From a virus, in IMG/VR virus record IMGVR_UViG_3300030098_004715, positions 1-25,956 of that record: a DNA stretch of 25,956 nucleotides; one strand, given 5' to 3'. Position numbers and translations under genes: made by a program. The number at the start of each line of letters is the position of its first letter. Within the stretch, counting starts at the first letter, position 1. Positions 7,749-15,071 of this stretch are shown one piece after another. The notes under the pieces are model-generated. The model was not told the DNA's origin, searched no databases, and saw only the letters and a program-made list of their open reading frames with translations.

Positions 7749-7973
7749 ATGATGACCTTTGAAAACTGGCTAGAAACCAGACAAGGCAAATTCTTTTCTA
7801 ATCTGTCCTTAGACTCCGAGCAAAGCGAAAAAGCTAAAGAAGCGAAACAACTAGCTTTGCAACGTATTTTTCTCGTATGTAGAGAAAATCAATTCGATCC
7901 AATTCCCGGCGTCATGCTTGGTGAATATTGGAGACTCAAGAATAAGGATGGATCAATGAACATCCCAACTTAA
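7749..7973 (+). CDS. Hypothetical 74-aa protein
   Basis: The start is taken as the double ATG at 7749, four bases after the preceding stop; a longer in-frame start at 7710 would overlap the upstream membrane segment. The protein begins MMTFENWLETRQGKFF, has a helical centre (SEKAKEAKQLALQRIFLVC) and ends with a compact segment (PIPGVMLGEYWRLKNKDGS). No family recognised. It closes the transcription unit from 7496, because a strong terminator follows at 7986-8007. Confidence 0.62.
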   Translation: MMTFENWLETRQGKFFSNLSLDSEQSEKAKEAKQLALQRIFLVCRENQFDPIPGVMLGEYWRLKNKDGSMNIPT

Positions 7974-7985
7974 CCATTCATGGCG

Positions 7986-8007
7986 CCCCCTTCATAGGGG
8001 GTTTTTT
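7986..8007 (+). terminator. Rho-independent terminator
   Basis: CCCCCT (7986-7991), loop TCAT, AGGGGG (7996-8001), then six T (8002-8007). A perfect six-pair GC-rich stem with a T-run, ending the unit that begins at 7496. Confidence 0.85.
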
Positions 8008-8027
8008 ATTCCTTCGCTTTTATATCA

Positions 8028-8258
8028 ATGACCAATAATTTAACTTGGGTCGAAATTCCCCAGCTTCGTAAGGAATTGCATTGTTCTGACAAAGTTATCT
8101 ATGCAGCTAAAAAATTAGGTCTTTTTAAACCCGGAGAACATTTTTATGCCCTCGGCAATATCTCTAAAGGTGGTAAACACATTTATTGTGTTGAACTTTG
8201 CCGCCAAGCTTTACTTGATGAAACCGCGAGAGTAGCCAAAGAAAGAAAAAAGAACTAA
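8028..8258 (+). CDS. Small helix-turn-helix protein, excisionase-like
   Basis: A 76-aa protein: LTWVEIPQLRKELHCSDKVI, YAAKKLGLFKPGEHFY, then a turn with GGKHIYCVELCRQALLDE. The arrangement of a first helix, a recognition-type helix (SDKVIYAAKKLGL) and a basic wing (PGEHFYALG.....GGKHIY) is like MerR/AlpA/Xis-type winged-helix proteins. In a phage with an integrase an excisionase is expected, and this is the best candidate in the window, though it lies far from int. It could equally be a regulator. No promoter is obvious between the terminator and the ATG. Confidence 0.55.
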   Translation: MTNNLTWVEIPQLRKELHCSDKVIYAAKKLGLFKPGEHFYALGNISKGGKHIYCVELCRQALLDETARVAKERKKN

Positions 8259-8263
8259 CCAAC

Positions 8264-8382
8264 GTCGGGGAGCCTGAAATCGGTACGTCTTAGGACGGCA
8301 CGTCATAAATCAAGTTCTAGACCCCTTGATGAAAACAGGGCACGAATATGCACAAAAGCATTGGCGTGATCCATCCCCCGAC
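8264..8382 (+). ncRNA. Candidate multibranched structured RNA or mRNA leader
   Basis: A 119-nt stretch without a gene folds by eye into a closed multiloop. P1: GTCGGGG (8264-8270) with CCCCGAC (8376-8382), seven perfect pairs 105 nt apart. P2: CGTC, loop TTAG, GACG (8286-8297). P3: ATCAAG with CTTGAT (8309-8314, 8325-8330). P4: CACG and ATGC with GCAT and CGTG (8341-8368), separated by a symmetric 3x3 internal loop. The 3' strand of P1 ends 9 nt before the next ATG. This could be a riboswitch-like leader of the 112-aa gene or a processed small RNA. I could not match it to a known class. Confidence 0.5.
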
Positions 8383-8391
8383 ATTTAATTA

Positions 8392-8730
8392 ATGAACAAA
8401 AAATTTTTAATTATGCACTACTATCTAGTAATTGGTGTTGAGCGTTCACCTCATTCTCCTGATGATGATGGAGACAGTTACGATGCTTTTAAAGTGGCTG
8501 TTTCATCAGAAAAAGAATTAACATTTGAAGAGTTAAAAAAAGCTTTTGAGGAAGAAGTTGAAATACTTTGGAGTTTGATATTTGACGATCTTGAATTAGA
8601 AGAACAGAAAGAGTGGGTGTGGGGTGAGGGATATAAAAATGTTGATTATGTTTTGGTAAGTAGCGAACCTTTTCCAGAAGATGTTGACATTTTTGGAGTT
8701 GATCTGGCTGTCGATTATCTTGGTAGCTGA
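8392..8730 (+). CDS. Very acidic 112-aa protein
   Basis: The protein has about 28 Asp/Glu against about 9 Lys/Arg, a net charge near -19, with no membrane segment. A beta-type start (FLIMHYYLVIGVERSP), an acidic helix (ELTFEELKKAFEEEVEILWS) and further acidic strands are visible. Such charge is seen in DNA-mimic phage proteins (for example Ocr-type anti-restriction proteins), but no sequence relation is claimed. ATG 8392 is the first start; ATG 8413 is an alternative. Translation starts just after the closed RNA structure at 8264-8382, so expression may depend on how that RNA folds. Confidence 0.6.
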   Translation: MNKKFLIMHYYLVIGVERSPHSPDDDGDSYDAFKVAVSSEKELTFEELKKAFEEEVEILWSLIFDDLELEEQKEWVWGEGYKNVDYVLVSSEPFPEDVDIFGVDLAVDYLGS

Positions 8731-8745
8731 AAAATCGCTAATATT

Positions 8746-8805
8746 GTGGGCCAGCTAACCTTTCTCACTGGTGATGGGGACGAACACTCCAACTGCTGAC
8801 CCATC
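8746..8805 (+). other. Intergenic stretch with two mutually exclusive stems
   Basis: In the gap 8731-8850, GTGGG-C-CAGC (8746-8755) can pair with GCTG-A-CCCAT (8795-8804) with one mismatch and one wobble. Alternatively GATGGG (8773-8778) pairs perfectly with CCCATC (8800-8805). Both use the same CCCAT. There is no coding frame here. A switching leader for the 64-aa gene at 8851 is possible; a chance overlap of repeats is also possible. A TTGACA at 8823-8828 has no matching -10. Confidence 0.3.
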
Positions 8806-8850
8806 CTAAAAATATCTCTATATTGACAATACGCAAGCGTAGTAAGTCTT

Positions 8851-13397: not shown

Positions 13398-15071
13398 TTA
13401 ATCAATTTTTCTAGCTCCACCACTAAAACCCTCATTACTACCACCAGTTCCATCTTTAACATTTGGTAAGTCTGTTATGACTGCATACGTAGAATCATCT
13501 GATTCATCAACTGAATTAGCATTATAGTTAAAACTACCTTTCCAACGACTCGATTGTGTTCCAGTTCCTCCGTTTCCGAAATCGCTGTTAGATGCACTTG
13601 CACTAGTAAGACCTGCCCCTAAATCACTAATAATTATTTGATAATCGTTAGTTGATGTGCCATCACCGTAAGTTCCATTAGTGGGACCATTAACAGCATC
13701 AAAAACCATAAGCATGCCTTGATGTGGATCTTCAATAATATCTATCCCGACATATAATTTACCGTCTTTTTCAATAGAACTAACTCCACGGGCATCCACG
13801 GTCGAACCCGCTTTTTGAACCTTAATATCTTTAACCCAATCATGACTCTTAGTACTAGCATCAAACTGAGTTCTTCCAACAACAGCATGTCTATCAAAAT
13901 TACTTGAAGCAGTATCCCTTTGCCCAGCCCAATAAACTCTACTATCATTTTGACTGTAATTTATATCATTTAAATACATTGAATAGTCTGTTCTCCAAGA
14001 AGCATCAGTATTACTGCCACTAGATAACACCACTCGCGCAACAGCTATAGCCGCTCGACCTGAATACTGATAGCTTGCAGCTTGAATTATAGTACTACTG
14101 TCTACATGTGTAACTTTGTGGCTGTGTGCGGCCGTGTAAGGACTGTTAGGAAAAGTGTTTTCTAGTCTTCTCCAATATTCAGAGCCATTTCCTCCAAAAT
14201 TACCACCTGAAGCTGCTGAACCTGCCATCCAATTTATATAGCCATCAAGTGCAATGCAGATGTAACCTGTCGTCCCTGAAGGCCAATAAAGACTTGAACT
14301 ATTGGAAGGCTGAAAAGTTTCAGCAAAGCTAGAACCGCTTAATGTATAACTACTGTAACCAGTATGGCTTGAACCAATATTAGAGCCATCTGAGGCTTTT
14401 TGTGCCAATAGAAAACCTACATCATGATTGCCATAAGTCTCTATTTTTACTTCGCCTAATTGAACACCAGTATCTACAAAATAATCAAGACTACTATTTT
14501 CTGGACAATGAATAAGACCACCCCCTAGATTATTTACATGGCCAGCACTTTCCGCTGATCTAAAATACCCTGATACTGTGTCATTAGTGCTGTTCCAATT
14601 GTTTCTGATTCCGTCATAAGCATCTTGTCTTCTAGCCCATTGTTCAGAACCATCAGAGCTGCTAAGGGCTACATGAACTAAATCTCCATAAACTTGGTTC
14701 CAACTATAAACATCTAATACAGAACAGATAATATATCCGTTGTATGGAGACCAAACGATGCCACTACACCATTTTGTGTTGGACTGTTCTGATGTTGGAG
14801 ATTGAACAGACCCAGAAGCTACTTTAGCCGAAACCATAATTTGTTTAACCCATTTAACTGCTCCAAACTTGTCGTGCTTAGTAACGACACATCCTCCATA
14901 TAGCCACTTCGCCCATGCTGTATAAATATTGCCATCATCATCAATCGTTATATTTTTTACGATTCTTAGACCAGTGGCACTAGCGGAATTACTAGGAGAG
15001 CCTTTTGCCATAGTCCACCAATACTCATCCCCTCCTAAACTGGCACCTAAAAACATTTGTTGAATAGGCAT
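13398..15071 (-). CDS. Tail-fibre or receptor-binding type protein (557 aa)
   Basis: N-terminus MPIQQMFLGASLGGDEYWWT is the short tail-attachment form common at the start of cyanophage fibre and appendage proteins. The rest is repeated beta-strand blocks rich in Ser, Gly, Asn, Trp and Tyr (IDDDGNIYTAWAKW, WVKQIMVS, GYIICSVLDVYSW, YICIALDGYINWM, KLYVGIDIIEDP), like a multi-blade beta-propeller. It ends with a Gly-rich segment GGSNEGFSGGARK. The Shine-Dalgarno GGAG lies 8 nt before ATG 15071. As the last gene of the tail operon, after the large fibre gene, it probably recognises the host surface; a role as side appendage is also possible. Confidence 0.68.
   Translation of the reverse strand: MPIQQMFLGASLGGDEYWWTMAKGSPSNSASATGLRIVKNITIDDDGNIYTAWAKWLYGGCVVTKHDKFGAVKWVKQIMVSAKVASGSVQSPTSEQSNTKWCSGIVWSPYNGYIICSVLDVYSWNQVYGDLVHVALSSSDGSEQWARRQDAYDGIRNNWNSTNDTVSGYFRSAESAGHVNNLGGGLIHCPENSSLDYFVDTGVQLGEVKIETYGNHDVGFLLAQKASDGSNIGSSHTGYSSYTLSGSSFAETFQPSNSSSLYWPSGTTGYICIALDGYINWMAGSAASGGNFGGNGSEYWRRLENTFPNSPYTAAHSHKVTHVDSSTIIQAASYQYSGRAAIAVARVVLSSGSNTDASWRTDYSMYLNDINYSQNDSRVYWAGQRDTASSNFDRHAVVGRTQFDASTKSHDWVKDIKVQKAGSTVDARGVSSIEKDGKLYVGIDIIEDPHQGMLMVFDAVNGPTNGTYGDGTSTNDYQIIISDLGAGLTSASASNSDFGNGGTGTQSSRWKGSFNYNANSVDESDDSTYAVITDLPNVKDGTGGSNEGFSGGARKID

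Follow-up and report, generated by a model that had tools for sequence, protein, structure and literature searches.

A structured RNA of marine cyanophages distantly related to sRNA-Xcc1, with a possible antisense function of its P3 loop

Siphophages of marine picocyanobacteria encode a conserved structured RNA that is a widespread new branch near sRNA-Xcc1 (RF02221), a known orphan family of Rfam. The window, by which we mean the whole DNA analysed (IMGVR_UViG_3300030098_004715, positions 1-25,956; 25,956 nt), carries this element at 8264-8382 (+), and each of the 40 records with a match (40/40) has one copy. We give about an even chance to the reading that it is a cyanophage branch of the sRNA-Xcc1 type, transcribed in sense, which acts as an antisense RNA through the loop of its hairpin P3. 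Cyanophages are abundant viruses of the ocean, and the RNA is spread over many of their siphovirus lineages; the cultured pair of phage P-HS2 and its host Prochlorococcus MED4 carries it as well, which makes the reading testable.

The element in the window

The element lies in a gap (8259-8391) between an ORF of 76 aa (8028-8258, +), whose stop codon ends 5 nt 5' of P1, as elsewhere in the family, and an ORF for an acidic protein of 112 aa (8392-8730, +; ATG at 8392). The initial annotation, made from the sequence of the window, had described a gene-free gap, an end 9 nt 5' of the ATG, a closing stem of seven pairs spanning 119 nt, and more order than expected, and all four points are borne out. 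The closing stem P1 pairs GTCGGGG (8264-8270) with CCCCGAC (8376-8382), as both the fold and covariation indicate, and the element has a minimum free energy of -37.2 kcal/mol where shuffled sequences have -28.25 +/- 3.6 (z -2.49; 2 of 200 shuffles as good). Across the family, pairs 1-3 of P1 show compensatory changes and the G4-G7/C pairs are nearly invariant.

All parts lie on the + strand. The 5' strand of P1 is followed by an invariant AGCCTG (8271-8276), made up of the junction AG and the 5' strand of P2 (CCTG); it belongs to a 13-mer start that is identical, position 2 aside, in 121 of 124 distinct elements. The 3' strand of P2 is CAGGG (8336-8340: C73, bulged A74, R75, G76, G77), with the bulge at the same place as in P2 of RF02221 and with position 75 being A or G, facing an invariant U. 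P3 pairs CACG (8341-8344) with CGTG (8365-8368); all four pairs covary, the types found being CACG/CGTG, CGCG/CGCG, GACG/CGTT, AGCG/CGCT, and CGGT/GCTG. The joining strand ATCCATC (8369-8375), AYYNATN in the family alignment, leads to the 3' strand of P1.

The three internal hairpins that had been noticed are all present, but they are conserved to different degrees. The small hairpin CGTC TTAG GACG (8286-8297) belongs to an exchangeable insert domain and occupies the place of P2a in other members. The hairpin of six pairs, P4 (8309-8330; ATCAAG at 8309-8314 with CTTGAT at 8325-8330), is conserved, is equivalent to the ACCC-loop-GGG hairpin of sRNA-Xcc1, and is paired in 89% over the family, with a double change from A-U to G-C in L022/L024 and U.G in L009/L017. 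The outer four pairs of the last hairpin, P3, are conserved too, but its inner four (8348-8351/8358-8361) belong to an inserted hairpin, ATGC ACAAAA GCAT (8348-8361), which is peculiar to the window copy; close relatives have a 7-nt loop, TAATTGG, in its place.

Two further features lie nearby. The stretch 7983-8031 of the window, an intrinsic terminator plus leader, is identical in L002, yet the next gene differs (76 aa in the window, 97 aa in L002); the interval from this terminator to the RNA is an exchange site for small genes, and L022, L033, and L043 have no gene in between. Behind the acidic gene is a second structured gap element (8738-8810, +; GTGGGCCAGC...GGTGATGGGGACGAACACTCC...GCTGACCCATCC), which is conserved in the phage group of the window and stands directly behind the first element in L034, L036, and L051; its Rfam search gave no credible match, and its folding z is -1.5. 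A long, non-coding, GC-rich, and apparently structured stretch of L002 (2050-2360, +) replaces the DNA methyltransferase gene of the window.

Family and hosts

Relatives were collected with patterns and then with covariance models. The first pattern, with the conserved 3' half fixed and the 5' half free, gave about 18 additional members, and three further patterns, each with a different part free, raised the number to at least 100; the 5' half is present in all real members, whether or not the pattern required it. Models R1 and R2 together found at least 132 places in contigs of marine picocyanophages, with at least 124 different sequences of 71-192 nt. A third model, built without any sequence of the window group or of MED4 phages, recovered both the MED4 phages and the window element, the latter at 50.9 bits (E = 1.7e-8).

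The terminase and tail proteins of these contigs point to siphophages of Synechococcus and Prochlorococcus, and the cultured members are the Prochlorococcus phages MED4-184/P-HS2 (element at 13799-13914; P3 loop CUACGCGAGGUG) and MED4-117. Searches of S-H1, KBS-S-2A, S-LBS1, and S-CBS1-4 gave no copy (S-CBS2 and S-CBS4 in their first 50 kb only). A BLAST search with the element against phage records returned chance matches only; the P-HS2 copy was found by covariance model. Matches in bacterial genomes lacked the 5' half, lay in coding sequence, and were judged to be chance.

Consensus structure

The core consists of P1 (7 bp, GYCGGGG), AG, P2 (CCTG/CARGG with a bulged A), P3 (4 bp), the joining strand, and P1'; inside P2 are (G)YYAUAMAA, the hairpin P4, and RAANNCA. 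The initial annotation would have been refuted by homologous gaps that break the stems; the homologous gaps retain them, with compensating changes. Among 71 distinct rows, 97.6% of cells are paired against 83% in shuffles, 176 cells are double changes against 58, and the covariation score is 0.40 against 0.15 in shuffles and at most 0.06 for slid versions; these rows were fitted to the model and are thus biased towards it, and the result holds for A2, which was aligned without structure. The near invariance of P1 and P2 means that selection acts there on sequence as well as on pairing.

The helix cells hold 91 G.U and 3 A.C on the + strand (47 and 3 without the U12.R75 pair). Such an excess of G.U means that the gene-sense strand folds and argues for an RNA. 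The same bias bears on a DNA site that would fold when single-stranded, such as a replication origin, a packaging signal, or a recombination hotspot. A single intergenic copy, its varying position, and the exchange of both flanking genes and interior would suit such a site; the strand bias speaks against it, as do the absence of a GC-skew extremum at the element and the assignment of P-HS2 to T7-like terminal-repeat packaging (PMC7852597), its element being 13.8 kb from the end of the record. A DNA site is therefore improbable.

An optional hairpin, P2a, lies between the constant CCTGAY and TGAAAG and covaries; it was counted in 86 of 124 members, many of which came from a pattern that required these flanks. 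The constant flanks UGA and UGA(AAG) look like tandem sheared G.A pairs and may form a kink-turn (for example, L032:7514-7621 and L080:13799-13914).

Other identities were considered for the element. Coding was rejected, since element lengths cover all residues modulo 3 and indels disregard the frame. The ARAGORN model for tRNA and tmRNA gave no match. An integron attC site was also rejected: in the aligned flanks, inspected by eye, no GTTRRRY follows P1' and no consistent RYYYAAC precedes P1.

Genomic position and stop-codon spacing

The element moves among genomes. In the window group it is near RusA and a DNA methyltransferase, and in MED4-184 it is beside a convergent RusA gene and a replication initiator. 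In other lineages it precedes TerS/TerL, follows a minor head gene, or separates TerL from portal or a helicase from VRR-NUC. Interiors differ behind identical flanks (L009 and L026; L013, L034, and L035), and no companion gene travels with the element across the lineages compared. The acidic gene has one homologue in IMG/VR, the gap of which keeps both ends of the structure with a quite different middle, and among relatives this gene is downstream only in L002/L006; it is not a conserved partner. The initial annotation was thus right about the position before a very acidic gene but not about a tie to it. Because the neighbouring genes differ between phages and share no companion, a leader dedicated to the acidic gene, one of two functions then suggested, is unlikely. 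The other, a phage small RNA, is preferable, and the element is a genuine conserved structured phage RNA.

A cis-regulatory leader or riboswitch acting on the downstream gene in general is also improbable. In most lineages the element does have an ATG 9-120 nt downstream on its own strand, and its RF02221 relatives precede one gene type, but here the downstream genes have no common function, being those for the 112-aa acidic protein, VRR-NUC, portal, small unknowns, and, in MED4-184, the convergent RusA.

More regular is the distance to the preceding stop codon. Among 73 distinct upstream flanks, 62 have no terminator and finish with an ORF of 40 aa or longer; P1 follows the stop codon of these after 6 nt in 25 cases, after 5 nt in 16, and after 3-14 nt in 58. 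The window spacer, CCAAC (8259-8263, +), is one of the 41 unrelated contexts with 5 or 6 nt, a distance found in 1 of 63 ordinary non-overlapping co-directional intergenic gaps of three related phages. Most remaining flanks have an intrinsic terminator or hairpin abutting P1; in phages of the MED4 lineage, P1 and the stop codon share one base. When the stop codon occupies the A site, a gap of 5-6 nt presumably brings the base of P1 to the point where mRNA enters the ribosome. It is a new question why dozens of unrelated genes should have a structured RNA beginning 5-6 nt behind their stop codons. Readthrough or frameshifting at the preceding stop was rejected, as spacings of 5, 6, and 7 nt place the element in different frames.

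The main rival to an antisense RNA takes this spacing as the function itself. The element would act in cis where the upstream cistron ends: a ribosome with the stop codon in its A site would have the base of P1 at its mRNA entrance, and the RNA so coupled would protect the message end, direct its processing, or insulate its folding. Both the narrow spacing, so rare in ordinary gaps, and the terminators or hairpins abutting P1 in the remaining copies are in its favour. A single copy per genome speaks against it, however, as do copies behind terminators with no stop codon in reach, the overlap with P1 in the MED4 lineage, and RF02221 relatives without the spacing (in Aaphi23, Q ends about 166 nt upstream). 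On balance we consider this explanation rather unlikely.

The terminators also bring to mind a factor-independent antiterminator like the put RNA of HK022. The element is about 70-120 nt of conserved nascent RNA, shares its strand with the operon downstream, and often directly follows a terminator, but it is a closed three-way junction, and what lies upstream is a terminator and not a promoter; we regard antitermination as very unlikely.

Relationship to sRNA-Xcc1

The initial annotation could assign the element to no known class. This holds for the window, where an Rfam search returned nothing at the element either at the gathering threshold or at E up to 10, but not for the family, since short members match RF02221 below its gathering score with ends at the exact element boundaries. 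At a relaxed threshold several short members align over model positions 1-87, and, searched record by record, 11 of 16 cyanophage records match at the element with E of 4e-7 to 4e-4, in short forms. Every cyanophage copy stays below the gathering score of 53 bits, the range being 26-36 bits and the best 35.9 and 35.6. In reverse, R1 finds the RF02221 copy of Aaphi23 weakly (15.2 bits, E 0.41) and at the exact place. Long forms and the window element have no direct match to RF02221 and are linked to it because the short forms bridge them.

The architecture of P1, P2, P4 core, and P3, with the core AAUACAA-ACCC...GGG-AAUA, is found in both short and P2a forms; the window has the core variant AUAAAUCAAG...CUUGAUGAAAA. 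We judge the cyanophage RNA to be distantly related to sRNA-Xcc1 and not a member of that family. The title of a 2011 paper by Chen et al. reportedly calls sRNA-Xcc1 integron-encoded and transferred by transposons and plasmids. sRNA-Xcc1 was discovered in Xanthomonas (PMC2996969) and also occurs in integron cassettes with symE (PMC12444791).

RF02221 copies in proteobacterial phages

BLAST searches with the RF02221 consensus found copies in phages of Haemophilus/Aggregatibacter, Acinetobacter, Escherichia, Pasteurella, Moraxella, Bordetella, Vibrio, Mannheimia, and Stenotrophomonas. An antirepressor-type gene is directly behind the RNA (in Smp131 the annotated gene overlaps it) in each of the 12 regions examined, and these genes belong to four unrelated Pfam families, Bro-N, KilA-N, P22_AR_N, and AntA. 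In 10 of 11 copies tested (L222, L223, L224, L225, L226, L227, L228, L230, L231, and L233), 6-9 nt of the apical loop of P3 are complementary to the ribosome-binding or start region of the adjacent antirepressor gene. Complementarity averages 6.8 nt against 4.1 nt for mismatched pairs (permutation p about 5e-6), with P3 stems and two start codons assigned by hand. These copies are likely a C4-like antisense switch over the antirepressor gene, apparently undescribed; no paper in the literature searched connects sRNA-Xcc1 with an antirepressor. An orphan Rfam family would thus gain a checkable mechanism in phages, the pairing of the P3 loop with the antirepressor ribosome-binding site. In the Bordetella phage IFTN1, a Burkholderiales-2 RNA (RF02917, 94 bits) is at L228:1114-1187 (-), 2.3 kb from the sRNA-Xcc1 copy.

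Function in cyanophages

For the cyanophage RNA we favour, by analogy with the antirepressor-linked relatives, an antisense function in which P3 would serve as the reading head for targets in trans. The RNA would be transcribed in sense within a polycistronic phage message, would start right behind a stop codon or terminator, and would fold into a three-way junction closed by P1, with P2 carrying the P4 core and the exchangeable insert, and with P3. The apical loop of P3 would pair with ribosome-binding regions of phage mRNAs and lower their translation, as indicated for the relatives upstream of antirepressor genes.

Neither the loop nor the whole interior of cyanophage copies has an excess of complementarity to adjacent genes; for P3 loops and adjacent ribosome-binding sites the values are 4.83 for own and 4.70 for others (p = 0.19). 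An antirepressor was rejected as the cyanophage target, as none of the domain families tested (Bro-N, KilA-N, AntA) has a gene in 21 cyanophage records. In gene leaders across the genomes, 12 loop groups have 27 complements of their own loop where 11.9 are expected, against 125 and 87.9 for the loops of other groups (permutation p 0.002 for the own-loop excess); GAGG-type loops account for most of the enrichment, of which the UAAUUGG loop of the window group shows none. This genome-wide matching is only suggestive as a lead to targets in trans. More tentatively, and with less confidence than in the antisense reading itself, it is possible that siphophages of marine picocyanobacteria carry a single RNA gene able to relocate, with an insert that can be exchanged, a P3 loop that differs by lineage and pairs in trans with several gene leaders, and a 5' end fixed to the terminating ribosome of the preceding gene, and that this gene and the antirepressor-linked sRNA-Xcc1 copies form one phage antisense superfamily.

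Comparison with known systems

Several phage RNAs invite comparison. In phages P1 and P7, C4 is an RNA of similar size that lies upstream of an antirepressor gene and pairs with the ribosome-binding region; in phage P1 it is on the same transcript as the antirepressor and blocks its translation. The RF02221 phage copies have the same arrangement and complementarity as C4 (RF01695), whereas no antirepressor gene of the kind that C4 controls in cis was found in the 21 cyanophage records searched for Bro-N, KilA-N, and AntA, and RF01695 has no match in window positions 7960-8460 up to E = 10. The put RNA of HK022 is likewise a compact conserved phage RNA on the operon sense strand, but it consists of two stem-loops behind early promoters, in two copies (PMC9378689), and the cyanophage fold differs from it. 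The manA, wcaG, and PhotoRC-II RNAs are also structured RNAs of marine cyanophages found by comparison; they precede metabolic or photosynthesis genes as leaders, for the most part in T4-like phages (PMC2864571), and have no Rfam match at the window element. The closest likeness is to sRNA-Xcc1, with its closing stem P1, its P2 with a 3'-strand bulge around a AAUACAANACCC-loop-GGG-AAUA core, and then its P3 hairpin. Unlike sRNA-Xcc1, the cyanophage RNA has a P1 fixed at 7 bp with CGGGG and an insert domain after CCTG, and it is locked behind stop codons with no antirepressor or symE gene. sRNA-Xcc1 belongs to proteobacteria, integrons, and their phages, while the RNA described here belongs to marine cyanophages.
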